A stretch of 64,000 nucleotides of DNA from Limnohabitans sp. DM1. Its GTDB lineage: Bacteria > Pseudomonadota > Gammaproteobacteria > Burkholderiales > Burkholderiaceae_C. The DNA is taken from the NCBI RefSeq assembly GCF_001269385.1, contig NZ_CXOO01000011.1, forward strand, positions 62,001 through 126,000, in the 5' to 3' direction. The position numbers were made by a program, and so were the translations under genes. The notes under the pieces were generated by a model, which had not been told where the DNA came from, did not search any database, and saw only the letters and a list, made by a program, of their open reading frames with translations. Within the stretch, counting starts at the first letter, position 1. Each line of letters begins with the position of its first letter. Below, in pieces: positions 58,883 to 63,192 of the stretch.

Positions 58883-59881
58883 TCAGCCGTACTTCAGCGC
58901 GGTCGCCTTGCCCCAAAACACGCGGTACATGAACACCGTGTAGCCGATGATCACCGGCAGCGTGATCGCCACGCCGAAAAAAATCACATTCAGCGACGCG
59001 GTGCTGATGGCAGCTTCCCACACCGTCATGCGGCCGATCACGATGTCGGGGAAGATGCTGTAGGCCAAGCCGAAAAAGGCCAGCACAAAAATCAGCACGG
59101 TATTGGCGAATACCAGCCAACCGTAACCCGCGTTGACCAAGTTCGGGCGCGTGAGCACCCAGCGCATGGCAAAAAAAGCCAAGGCGCACATGAGGGGCAC
59201 GGGCAGCAAGGCAAACACCTGGGGCACACCGAACCATTTCTCCAGCACGCCCTCTTTGACCAGTGGCGTGGCCGCCGAGATAGCCAGCAAGGCAGCCGCC
59301 ATGGGCCACAGCACAAGCCGCGCCCAGCGCACGGCCTTTTGCTGCAGATCGCCTTCGGTTTTCATGATCAACCAGCCCGAACCCAGCAGCACATAAGCGG
59401 CGGGCAAGGTGACGGCGATGCCCAAGCTAAATGCCCAGCCCAGCGGCCCACTGGCAAAACCGGTGATGTAGCTGCCCAGCATCCAGCCCTGCGACGCACT
59501 GGCCATGAGCGAGCCTGCGAAAAACGCGCGGTTCCAGAACGGCTTGTACTTCAGCGGTGCTTTCGCTCGGAAGTCAAATGCCACGCCTCGCAAGATCAAG
59601 CCAATCAGCATCATCGCCACGGGCAGGTACAAGGCCTGCAGCACCAGACCATGGGCCATCGGAAAAGCGATCAACAACACACCCACGCCCAGCACCAGCC
59701 AGGTCTCGTTGGCGTCCCAAAACGGTCCGATGCTGGCGATCATGGTGTCCTTTTCAGCGTCGGTCGCTTGCAAGAGCAACAAACCAACGCCCAGGTCGTA
59801 ACCATCCAAAATCACGTAAGCCAGCAGGGACAGACCCATCACAGCCAGGAAAAACAATGGCAGAAATTCAGCCCAGGTCAT
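58883..59881 (-). CDS. cydB: Cytochrome bd-type quinol oxidase subunit II
   Basis: Membrane subunit of 332 aa, shorter than E. coli CydB (379) and closer in size to the cyanide-insensitive CioB type. It starts MTWAEFLPLFFLAVMGLSLLAYVILDGYDLGVGLLLL, the family opening, and has FWDANETWLVLGVGVLLIAFP and FDFRAKAPLKYKPFWN. It lies 39 nt after cydA. No CydX-like small ORF was found behind it. Confidence 0.93.
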   Translation of the reverse strand: MTWAEFLPLFFLAVMGLSLLAYVILDGYDLGVGLLLLQATDAEKDTMIASIGPFWDANETWLVLGVGVLLIAFPMAHGLVLQALYLPVAMMLIGLILRGVAFDFRAKAPLKYKPFWNRAFFAGSLMASASQGWMLGSYITGFASGPLGWAFSLGIAVTLPAAYVLLGSGWLIMKTEGDLQQKAVRWARLVLWPMAAALLAISAATPLVKEGVLEKWFGVPQVFALLPVPLMCALAFFAMRWVLTRPNLVNAGYGWLVFANTVLIFVLAFFGLAYSIFPDIVIGRMTVWEAAISTASLNVIFFGVAITLPVIIGYTVFMYRVFWGKATALKYG

Positions 59882-59920: not shown

Positions 59921-61285
59921 TCACACCCCCGCTTTGCCCAACAGGGCACCCGTGGGCACATCCTGTCTGTGTTCTTTGGGGTTCTCGGCCATGTACTTCA
60001 ACACGCCGACATAAGTCACCAACAGCAGGCCGTAGACCACCAGGTAGGCCGTCAAGGTGAGCGCAATGTAGGGCGGCGGCAAGGTGGTGGCGGCTTCGCT
60101 GGTACGCATCAAGCCATGCACCAGGAAGGGCTGGCGACCGATCTCGGTCACGTACCAACCCGCCAGCGTGGCAACCCAGCCGGAGAACGCCATGCCCGAG
60201 AGCACCCACAACAGGGGCTTGGGCAGTGTCACTTCTGGCTGCCTGCGCTGAAGCCACAAGCGCCAGGCGGTAAAGCCCGCCACCAGCAGCATCAACGAAC
60301 CCACACCCACCATCACGCGAAAGGCATAAAACACGGGCGCCACCGGTGGATGCACCCCTTCAAATTCGTTGATGCCCTTGACTTCGCCGTCCAGCTCGTG
60401 GGTCAGGATCAAGCTGGCCACTTTGGGGATCTTCACCGCGTAGTGGGTGGTGCGAGCTTCTTGATCAGGAATGCCAAACAGCGTCAGCGGTGCGCCACGC
60501 TCGGTTTCCCAAATGCCCTCCATGGCAGCGACCTTGGCCGGTTGGTGCTCCAGGGTGTTCAGGCCATGCATGTCCCCCACCAGGAACTGCAGAGGCATCA
60601 CGCAAGCAGCGGTGAAAACGGCTGCACGCATGGCTTTGTGGGTGCCGCGCGTGGCGCTGCCTTTGATCAGTTGCCAAGCGCACAGCCCAGCGATCAGGAA
60701 CGAAGCTGTCAGTGCCGAAGCGAGCAACTTGTGCGAGAAACGGTAGGGAAACGAAGGGTTAAAAACCACCGCCAACCAATCGGTGGGGATGAACTGGCCG
60801 TTGACGATTTCGAAACCCGCCGGGGTGTGCATCCAGGAGTTCAGGCTCAAGATCCAGAAGGCCGACATGGTGGTGCCAAACGCCACCAAAAAAGTGGCGA
60901 TCAGGTGCACCCGCTCGCTCACCCGGCCACGGCCAAACAGCATGATGCCCAGAAAGCTGGCCTCCAGAAAAAACGCTGTCAGCACCTCATAGCCCAGCAG
61001 CGGCCCTGAAATATTGCCCGTGCGTTCCATGAAGCCTGGCCAATTGGTGCCGAACTGAAAGCTCATCACAATGCCCGAGACCACACCCAGCGCAAAGGTG
61101 AGCGCGAACACCTTGGTCCAAAAATAGTAAGCCTCTTCCCACGCCTGGTCTTGGGTGCGGGCGAAACGCCAACGGAAGAACAGCAAGAACCAACACAGCG
61201 CGATGGTGATGGTGGGGAACAGGATGTGGAAGCTGATGTTCGCAGCAAACTGGATGCGCGAGAGGATGAGTGCGTCGATGTCCAT
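59921..61285 (-). CDS. cydA: Cytochrome bd-type quinol oxidase subunit I
   Basis: Heme-bearing subunit of 454 aa; reduces O2 to water at high affinity using quinol. His20 in FAANISFHILFPT is the expected heme ligand. GRGRVSERVHLIATFLVAFGT and FIPTDWLAVVFNPSFPYRFSHKLLAS (second His region) follow. The length indicates the short Q-loop, cyanide-insensitive (CioA-like) subfamily. It starts 18 nt after the GbsR-type regulator, so it is probably one operon. Confidence 0.94.
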   Translation of the reverse strand: MDIDALILSRIQFAANISFHILFPTITIALCWFLLFFRWRFARTQDQAWEEAYYFWTKVFALTFALGVVSGIVMSFQFGTNWPGFMERTGNISGPLLGYEVLTAFFLEASFLGIMLFGRGRVSERVHLIATFLVAFGTTMSAFWILSLNSWMHTPAGFEIVNGQFIPTDWLAVVFNPSFPYRFSHKLLASALTASFLIAGLCAWQLIKGSATRGTHKAMRAAVFTAACVMPLQFLVGDMHGLNTLEHQPAKVAAMEGIWETERGAPLTLFGIPDQEARTTHYAVKIPKVASLILTHELDGEVKGINEFEGVHPPVAPVFYAFRVMVGVGSLMLLVAGFTAWRLWLQRRQPEVTLPKPLLWVLSGMAFSGWVATLAGWYVTEIGRQPFLVHGLMRTSEAATTLPPPYIALTLTAYLVVYGLLLVTYVGVLKYMAENPKEHRQDVPTGALLGKAGV

Positions 61286-61303
61286 GGTGGCTTTCTTTGG
61301 GTG

Positions 61304-61900
61304 TCAAGCGCTGTCGCGTGTCTGGCTGATGACCGGTGCTTTGTTACCGCGACCGGTCAGGCGGTCTTTGAATTCGAGCACTTTGGTCACCGTGGTGCCC
61401 ATGCTCATGAGCTGCATGGCGGTCTCGGGCGCGAGCTTTTGCACGTCGTCAAACCAGGTCATGAGGCGGTCGATCAGGTCGTGCATTTCGCGCATGCGCT
61501 GCTGAGCATGTCGCTCTGCGTCGGTGCTGGGCGTCTCCAACAAGGCGGATCTCAGCATGCTCAAGGTGGGTTCGATTTCACGGCGGCGACGCTCCTCGGC
61601 CAGCACCCGAAAGATTTCCCACACATCTGCCGGCGCCTCAAAGTATTCGCGCCGGTCACCCGTTTGGTGACGCAAACGGACCAGCCGCCAGGCCTGCAAC
61701 TCTTTGAGGCCCATGCTCACGTTGGAGCGCGAGAACGCCAGCGCCTCGGCAATCTCATCGGCGTTCAAGGCCTGCGGCGACACATAGAGCAGCGCGTAAA
61801 TCTGACCCACGGTGCGGTTGATGCCCCACTTGCTGCCCATTTCACCGAAATGGGCGATGAACTCGCGGTTGAGGGCGGGAATTTGGTCTGAAATGGTCAT
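61304..61900 (-). CDS. GbsR/MarR-type transcriptional regulator of cydAB
   Basis: A 198-aa winged-helix protein of the GbsR subgroup of MarR regulators. The HTH is in ALNADEIAEALAFSRSNVSMGLKELQAWRLVRLRHQTGDRREYFEAP, about residues 43-90. The helical C-terminus (RRREIEPTLSMLRSALL and later) is probably for dimerisation. It is the first gene of a gbsR-cydA-cydB cluster and is preceded by a 7-4-7 palindrome, so control of cydAB and itself is likely. The ligand is unknown. Confidence 0.85.
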   Translation of the reverse strand: MTISDQIPALNREFIAHFGEMGSKWGINRTVGQIYALLYVSPQALNADEIAEALAFSRSNVSMGLKELQAWRLVRLRHQTGDRREYFEAPADVWEIFRVLAEERRRREIEPTLSMLRSALLETPSTDAERHAQQRMREMHDLIDRLMTWFDDVQKLAPETAMQLMSMGTTVTKVLEFKDRLTGRGNKAPVISQTRDSA

Positions 61901-61928
61901 ACCGCAATTCTAGCCTCGCCTTTTGAAT

Positions 61929-61946
61929 TTTCAGTAATGACTGAAA
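61929..61946. promoter_or_regulatory. 7-4-7 palindrome, candidate operator of the GbsR-type regulator
   Basis: TTTCAGT-AATG-ACTGAAA, a perfect inverted repeat 28 bp upstream of the regulator start, in an AT-rich patch. Size and spacing suit a MarR-family dimer, giving likely autoregulation of gbsR-cydAB. Confidence 0.62.
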
Positions 61947-62136
61947 TATCAGGAAACATCATAGGGTTATCCCTTGTGCATCGAACGAAGCCCGCGAGAT
62001 GCGCAAGCGTAACCAAAGGCGCTGAAGATCGACGCCATCGAAACACGCTGGCCTTGCAATCGGCTGTTTGATCACCAATTAGCCACTCGGTAGCAATTTT
62101 TCTTACCGATCTTCAACCTTGATTCAAATAATTCCT
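61947..62136. other. Gap between gbsR operator and old-yellow-enzyme gene
   Basis: About 190 bp with no gene or clear RNA. It should hold the promoter of the plus-strand reductase; no confident -35/-10 pair was seen. Confidence 0.4.
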
Positions 62137-63192
62137 ATGCTGTTTAGCCCTCTTCAAATCGGCTCCGTTGCCCTCGCCAACCGCATGCTCATGGCACCGC
62201 TGACCCGAGCGCGTGCCAGTGCAGGGCATCTGCCCAATCCGCTCATGGCCGAGTACTATGCGCAGCGCGCCAGCGCCGGTCTGATCATCACCGAGTGCAC
62301 CATGATTGCCGAGAACACCTCGGCCTTTGTCAACGAACCCGGTATTTACAACGCCGCACAAATCGAAGCCTGGAAAGAAACCACTGCCGCTGTTCATGCC
62401 AAGGGCGGCAAAATCTTCATGCAAATCTGGCACGCCGGCCGCGCCGCACACCCGGCCAACAATGACGGGGCTCCGATTGTTTCGTCCAGCAAACTGCCGC
62501 TCCAGGGCGATGCCCACACCGCGCAAGGCATGTTGCCCCAAGCCACACCCCACGCCTTGCTGGAAAGCGAAATTGCCACCATCGTGCAAGCCTTTGCGCA
62601 GGCCGCCAAAAACGCCATGGCTGCAGGTTTTGACGGCGTGGAAGTACACGGTGCCAACGGCTACTTGATTGATCAATTTCTGCGCGACAGCGCCAACCAA
62701 CGCAGCGACAGCTACGGCGGCACATTGGAACAACGCGCACGCTTCCTGTTTGAGGTTTTGACCGCCGTGTGTGCGGCCATCGGCAGCGACCGGGTGGGCC
62801 TGCGCCTGTCGCCCCTGAACAGCTACAACGACATGAAAGACAGCGACCCGCTTGCCTGGACAGCCTACCTGGCCGAGCAACTCAACCGCTTTGATTTGGC
62901 CTACTTGCACATCATGCGGGCAGACTTTTTTGGCCTGCAAAAAGCCGATGTGATGCCCCTTGCACGCGCCCACTACAAAGGTGTGCTGATTGGCAACATG
63001 GGATACACCCCAGCCGAGGCCGAGGCGGCCACCACCGAAGGCAAGCTTGACGCCGTCGCCTTTGGCAACGGCTTCCTCGCCAACCCCGACTTCCCTGCCC
63101 GTGTGAAAGCGGGTGCGGCCATGAACGTACCCGACCAAAGCACCTTTTACACCCCCGGCGCCAAGGGCTACACCGATTACCCAACGCTGTAA
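62137..63192 (+). CDS. Old yellow enzyme family alkene reductase (NemA-like)
   Basis: FMN flavoprotein of 351 aa reducing activated C=C bonds or nitro compounds with NAD(P)H. Blocks are LFSPLQIGSVALANRMLMAPLTRARA, MQIWHAGRAAHP, DGVEVHGANGYLIDQFLRD with the His/Asn substrate-binding pair, and RSDSYGGTLEQRARF. The C-terminal AFGNGFLANPDFPARV binds the FMN phosphate. The ATG at 62137 (MLFSPLQIG) is the family start; a TTG six codons upstream is less likely. It is probably a stress or detoxification enzyme; the substrate is not inferable. Confidence 0.9.
   Translation: MLFSPLQIGSVALANRMLMAPLTRARASAGHLPNPLMAEYYAQRASAGLIITECTMIAENTSAFVNEPGIYNAAQIEAWKETTAAVHAKGGKIFMQIWHAGRAAHPANNDGAPIVSSSKLPLQGDAHTAQGMLPQATPHALLESEIATIVQAFAQAAKNAMAAGFDGVEVHGANGYLIDQFLRDSANQRSDSYGGTLEQRARFLFEVLTAVCAAIGSDRVGLRLSPLNSYNDMKDSDPLAWTAYLAEQLNRFDLAYLHIMRADFFGLQKADVMPLARAHYKGVLIGNMGYTPAEAEAATTEGKLDAVAFGNGFLANPDFPARVKAGAAMNVPDQSTFYTPGAKGYTDYPTL

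Follow-up and report, generated by a model that had tools for sequence, protein, structure and literature searches.

A conserved palindrome ahead of a GbsR-type regulator gene and cydAB in Limnohabitans: probable operator of a CydE/CioR-type repressor, and a proposed residue-base rule for its recognition

An exact inverted repeat, TTTCAGT-AATG-ACTGAAA, lies upstream of a GbsR-type regulator gene and the two subunit genes of a bd oxidase in Limnohabitans sp. DM1, within a 64,000-nucleotide stretch of DNA that was analysed as a whole (the window). This arrangement raises the question of whether the repeat serves as the operator of that regulator, forming a dedicated control circuit for the oxidase as had originally been predicted, and of how it might then be recognised. 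We put at roughly nine in ten the probability that positions 61929-61946 are the operator of the downstream-encoded GbsR-type repressor, an orthologue of CydE/CioR, which would cover a -35 element and shut off both its own gene and the bd oxidase until released by an inducer. In general terms, a repressor of a known type, one that controls a stress-resistant respiratory enzyme, almost certainly binds at the palindrome. The features concerned are as follows.

58883..59881, minus strand: cydB/cioB, bd oxidase subunit II, 332 aa (PF02322)
59921..61285, minus strand: cydA/cioA, bd oxidase subunit I, 454 aa (PF01654)
61304..61900, minus strand: GbsR-type MarR regulator, CydE/CioR orthologue, 198 aa (domain, fold and relative searches)
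61712..61717, minus strand: codons of Ser62-Met63 in the recognition helix (residues 58-70), which would read bases 3 and 5 of the half-site (natural variation and model)
61907..61912, minus strand: probable -10 hexamer TAGAAT, its end 6 nt short of the ATG (promoter scan and 52 promoters)
61929..61934, minus strand: probable -35 hexamer CTGAAA, identical with one operator half-site (promoter-like site scan)
61929..61946, no strand: predicted core operator TTTCAGT-N4-ACTGAAA (exact palindrome, conserved before orthologues, same core as CydE footprint site 1)
61924..61951, no strand: palindrome extended to 28 bp, with TGAATTTTCAGTAATTACTGAAAATTCA as the family consensus (two 12-bp arms, 83% complementary; 52 de-duplicated promoters compared column by column)

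The letters and coordinates of the core agree exactly with the original prediction, as does its distance from the regulator gene; the ATG of this gene is at 61900 on the minus strand, such that the 28 bp of 61901-61928 separate site and start. The gene order also holds, with the regulator gene co-oriented with, and directly 5' of, the bd oxidase subunit genes (all three on the minus strand) and an 18-nt spacer at 61286-61303 before cydA. The palindrome extends outwards into imperfect 12-bp arms, 61924-61935 and 61940-61951, that are 83% complementary. At fewer than three mismatches, TTTCAGTN4ACTGAAA has its sole match within the window at 61929-61946, and the same position is the only place in the 4.9-Mb genome with an exact TTTCAGN6CTGAAA. 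With one mismatch allowed, 24 places are found in the genome versus 17 for a reversed-pattern control; we therefore claim no site beyond 61929-61946, and the idea of a larger regulon in this genome was dropped.

The regulator belongs to the GbsR-type MarR fold (PF12802), a winged helix joined to a helical part for dimerisation, with 5jbr (Z 10.9), 1ku9 and 4nb5 (both Z 10.8) as its closest structures in the PDB; 1ku9, the archaeal protein Mj223 of Methanocaldococcus jannaschii, is also its best sequence match among solved folds. The NCBIfam model CudC (GbsR-like) matches it below the cut-off only. At E up to 0.001 the genome has a single regulator of this kind, and one gene for bd subunit I was found in it. 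The genomic context of the regulator is that of a bd oxidase, not of osmoprotection, and its conserved His17 and Glu20 might fit a metal site.

A precedent for this arrangement is the CydE protein of Alishewanella sp. WH16-1, which PMC6096048 describes as a GbsR-type repressor of cydEAB with DNase I-footprinted sites; there, as we would expect here, the GbsR-type gene heads cydAB in one operon. Footprint site 1 of CydE, TATTTCAGAAATTTCTGAAAGTTCA, has in common with the palindrome the TTTCAG-N6-CTGAAA core and the outer TTCA, and since the core equals that of a DNase I footprint, we place the operator with high confidence among real sites of the described CydE/CioR kind. The second footprinted site, GGGATGCGCATATGCAAAT, has no match in the window at up to three mismatches; because it is described for one strain, its absence is treated as a difference rather than as the lack of a defining trait. 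In the Alishewanella relatives L319-L322 a CydE site 2 can be seen by eye near the start codon. Another conserved element, GGATAACCC, was weighed as a possible counterpart of CydE site 2 and dropped, as the Alishewanella-like relatives have site 2 at the start region (again by eye).

CioR of Chromobacterium violaceum is a further precedent: according to PMC11837568 it is a direct autorepressor of the cyanide-induced operon cioR-cioA-cioB, which has the same gene order and, likewise, a short bd subunit I, with the difference that in C. violaceum cioRAB is additionally under quorum-sensing and OsbR control; the passages on CioR give no operator motif. The type of circuit is thus already described, in Alishewanella (2018) and in Chromobacterium (2025), and a 2018 survey has 34 of 179 GbsR genes adjoining cyd genes. 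More distant are OpcR and GbsR of Bacillus subtilis (PMC7396694 and PMC6207618), which likewise are GbsR-type repressors whose operators are inverted repeats. OpcR acts on a -35 region by blocking it, the mode that we propose here; both proteins differ in controlling choline/betaine genes and in their operators and spacers. The B. subtilis GbsR senses choline, and the residues of the aromatic cage for choline or betaine are given as missing from CydE in PMC6207618.

If the palindrome is an operator of this kind, it should recur ahead of orthologous clusters, and the original prediction had named its non-conservation there as grounds for refutation. One scan of species genomes gave 390 relatives of the regulator, of which the best 80 were kept; cydA lies directly downstream in 66 of these 80. 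Of these 66, 60 carry the 12-letter core without a mismatch and the other 6 with one. An exact core was seen in 0 of 4050 shuffled upstream regions and in 0 of 2935 control tiles, and a one-mismatch core in 0.05% of the shuffles and in no tile. The conserved columns of 52 de-duplicated promoters cluster in the 28-bp palindrome TGAATTTTCAGTAATTACTGAAAATTCA, which is followed downstream by a -10-like hexamer and preceded, 17-24 nt upstream, by a weaker element. The exact core is found with regulators down to about 48% identity, across class and phylum. Conservation before orthologues, together with the footprinted CydE core, thus supports the predicted operator and its circuit.

In the window, the weaker element (GGGATAACCCT, coding strand) is at 61963-61976; it recurs in Limnohabitans and partly in Hydrogenophaga (columns -24 to -17).

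The remaining 14 of the best 80 relatives (13 Variovorax and 1 Xylophilus) are without cydA directly downstream. In ten of them a cydCAB stretch, with a longer CydA, is convergent to the regulator, and in the other four no cydA was found within the stretch read; no exact site stands before the regulator in any of the 14 (one mismatch in 2, two in 9, more in 3). The cydD promoter could be read in two genomes that have the regulator gene beyond the far end of cydDCAB (a third, L334, was left out, as its contig ends soon after the regulator), and in both an exact site stands immediately before cydD (L333:10095-10112 and L335:7484-7501), with a second exact site kept before the regulator in the L335 genome. 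Because the exact site fronts cydD where the regulator gene stands elsewhere, it appears that the site stays with the bd operon.

By eye, one CydE-like regulator (L091, 53% identity) lies near an open reading frame resembling cytochrome bo subunit II; no site was found before this regulator.

A different factor, be it FNR/ANR, ArcA or another MarR protein, might instead bind the palindrome and control the regulator gene, with the GbsR-type protein acting elsewhere. That OsbR likewise represses cioRAB (PMC11837568) lends this some colour, as do FNR-type boxes at 27 of 105 CydE-type loci outside the best-80 set. The palindrome, however, does not resemble an FNR site and is identical to the core footprinted with CydE, its letters vary together with the recognition helix in the GbsR-type regulator (see below), and it stands before cydD in the two genomes where the regulator gene is elsewhere; we consider binding by another factor very improbable. 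FNR-type control of the promoter itself was rejected, there being no FNR-type box (TTGATN4ATCAA) at it; the nearest upstream match in the window at up to two mismatches, 62119-62132, has two and lies about 220 bp from the start codon. Within one mismatch, such a box was found at 1 of 65 cydA-adjacent loci from the best 80 of 390 relatives (65 rather than 66, as L074 is absent from this count), at the said 27 of 105 other CydE-type loci and at 2 of 110 paralogues, versus about 1% in shuffles. The original suggestion of a circuit distinct from FNR control therefore stands for this class of promoter and falls for the CydE-type family as a whole.

The cydE promoters of the Alishewanella-like L319-L321 have, by eye, an FNR-type box (e.g. 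TTGATCTGGATCAA) upstream of the CydE site.

Where the palindrome lies relative to the promoter bears on how it might act. The probable -35 and -10 hexamers agree with consensus in 9 of 12 letters across a 16-bp spacer and form the one promoter-like site found in the region, versus 0.3 expected from shuffles. In 46 of the 52 promoters, a hexamer sharing four or more of its six letters with TATAAT has its end 6-10 nt short of the start; 500 shuffles gave 5.2 such promoters on average and never more than 13. With the -10-like hexamer so close to the start codon, the transcript is predicted to be leaderless or nearly so. An inverted repeat with 4 nt between its arms could also be a hairpin, in RNA or as a terminator, instead of a protein site; yet the probable transcription start lies downstream, which would leave the palindrome outside the transcript of the gene, nothing resembling a terminator was found at it, and its letters are kept as sequence, beyond what pairing alone would ask for. 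On the position of the probable start we rejected this hairpin reading, which is scarcely credible.

For the operator, we suggest that the palindrome is occupied by a dimer of the repressor, which masks the -35 hexamer of the sole promoter-like site found before regulator-cydA-cydB and would thereby shut off its own gene along with the bd oxidase, through steric hindrance and as a case of negative autoregulation. An inducer, perhaps metal or sulfur related, would then release the repressor; Zn or Fe is reported to release CioR in vitro (PMC11837568) and sulfate to be the signal for CydE (PMC6096048), and a search of the literature found no reported inducing signal for the present organism. Each recognition helix would read one TTTCAG half-site, with Ser62 and Met63 specifying bases 3 and 5.

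This last step derives from natural variation among the relatives, which include a paralogue group marked by Ala57 and about 35-54% identity. No cydA-like neighbour was found for paralogues within the stretches read; DCC1-like, DoxX-like or SDR-type neighbours accompany 70 of 110 paralogues versus 0 of 108 CydE-type loci. Their sites are mostly TTTCTGN6CAGAAA (loci L094-L108, L176-L195 and L199-L215). Among the 28 genomes in which both regulators were read, 20 have the A/T split between the two sites, 2 are A/A (with Met63 in both regulators) and 6 are unclear.

The recognition helix spans residues 58-70 in a structure model built on a shallow, 38-row alignment (mean pLDDT 79.8). At residue 63, Met or Ile goes with the half-site TTTCAG and Thr or Asn with TTTCTG; at residue 62, Ser, Gly and Ala go with TTT, TTC and TTA, respectively. 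The rule was fixed before further loci were read, in the form Met/Ile/Leu63 to CAG and Thr/Asn63 to CTG, and Ser/Gly/Ala62 to TTT/TTC/TTA. Sites were typed by minimum mismatches as TTTCAG-type or TTTCTG-type, which reduces the six patterns of the rule first noted to two. In all, 100 places of relatives were read by position; tblastn gave no regulator match at L109 and L260.

The 137 discovery loci (L082-L235), on which the rule was built, have all 110 clear sites with Met, Ile, Leu, Thr or Asn63 fitting, one Val63 locus of CAG type, and ties at seven Met/Thr loci and one Val63 locus; 18 of the 137 are without either site type, six of these being Gly62 or Ala62 loci with half-sites of their own. 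The 82 held-out rows count as 81 distinct loci, since L261 re-reads the gene of L255, and 60 of their 62 clear sites (at most one mismatch) fit the residue-63 rule, with L243 and L253 as misfits, 7 ties and 12 loci without a site; this set is not random, as families f202 and f203 were chosen for holding switches, and in it there is no Gly62 or Ala62, so these counts bear on residue 63 alone. Allowing two mismatches gives 61 fits, 5 misfits (L243, L251, L252, L253 and L278), 10 ties and 5 loci without a site. The best 80 of the 390 relatives all carry Met63, with 68 sites of CAG type and 12 loci without a site, and seven of the eight plasmid loci read (from 172 matched plasmid records) fit, the eighth, L328, having no site. 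For residue 62, among the CydE-type loci with a site, TTT accompanies Ser in 157 cases out of 158, the remaining one being a tie, while Gly is paired with TTC in 5 of 5 and Ala with TTA in 1 of 1; at 22 Ser62 CydE-type loci no site was found.

The exceptions deserve naming. L243 has Met63 yet a perfect CTG-type site, and L253 an A-type site with Thr63. Half-sites are mixed, one of each type, at ten Thr63 loci, one Val63 locus (L183) and one Met63 locus (L279), and six loci with Met, Ile or Leu63 (L083, L091, L131, L160, L164 and L226) have no site within two mismatches before the regulator.

At several Met63 loci, an overlapping second palindrome lies 9 nt downstream.

Could the operator be real, and its link to residues 62 and 63 be a by-product of ancestry, arising from two subfamilies that differ in many residues? 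The main split between CydE-type and paralogue-type is a single event, other columns score high in mutual information (Tyr35 0.78; Phe18 and Ser57 0.73), and the residue-62 rule comes from one family (five Gly loci) and one Ala locus. Independent pairs number 3-4; in nearly all pairings the site changes in the same direction, and in none in the opposite one (sign test p 0.25); such independent switches stayed few because an order-level enlargement for L247 gave one genome. Against this, residue 63 is the top alignment column for operator base 5 (weighted mutual information 0.876; next 0.775), and dependent evolution is favoured over independent (LR 31.0, 4 df, p 3e-6, 240 tips). The tree omits L110, L261 and L262, along with every row shorter than 120 aa or no more than 33% identical. 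Sites also follow residue 63 where it departs from its subfamily: the paralogues L192 and L280, and the alphaproteobacterial paralogue L247, have Met63 and CAG sites, and L268, with a CydE-like helix and Asn63, has a CTG-type left half. Five other columns predict these four loci as well, with at most 80% accuracy elsewhere versus 98% for residue 63; the four were picked for a departing residue 63, and L243, where the site departs and residue 63 does not, is not among them.

We accordingly regard common ancestry as a somewhat unlikely source of the pattern. What we favour, with reservations, is a two-residue, two-base code in the GbsR-type recognition helix, in which residue 62 (Ser, Gly or Ala) would read T, C or A at base 3 and residue 63 (Met/Ile versus Thr/Asn) would read A versus T at base 5, such that a change of one base per half-site may separate the bd oxidase repressor from its paralogue in the same cell.

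What this locus offers is a well-supported predicted operator for a repressor-oxidase pair found in Comamonadaceae and other Proteobacteria, with a consensus that can be used to seek CydE targets. The part that we propose as new is the residue-base rule, drawn from comparison of sequences; it bears on the point, made by the authors of PMC7396694 and PMC6207618, that closely related proteins of the OpcR/GbsR group must contact their operators differently. Within the literature searched, no publication with any of three operator strings was found, nor one that brings together GbsR, recognition helix and specificity.

Two neighbourhoods may be noted in addition. A divergent old-yellow-enzyme/NemA-like gene at 62119-63192 shares the intergenic region in which the palindrome lies. 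On the Chelatococcus plasmid pCO-6 (L326), a regulator-cydDC cluster adjoins sulP and a gene for a YeeE/YedE thiosulfate transporter, which may point to a link with sulfur.
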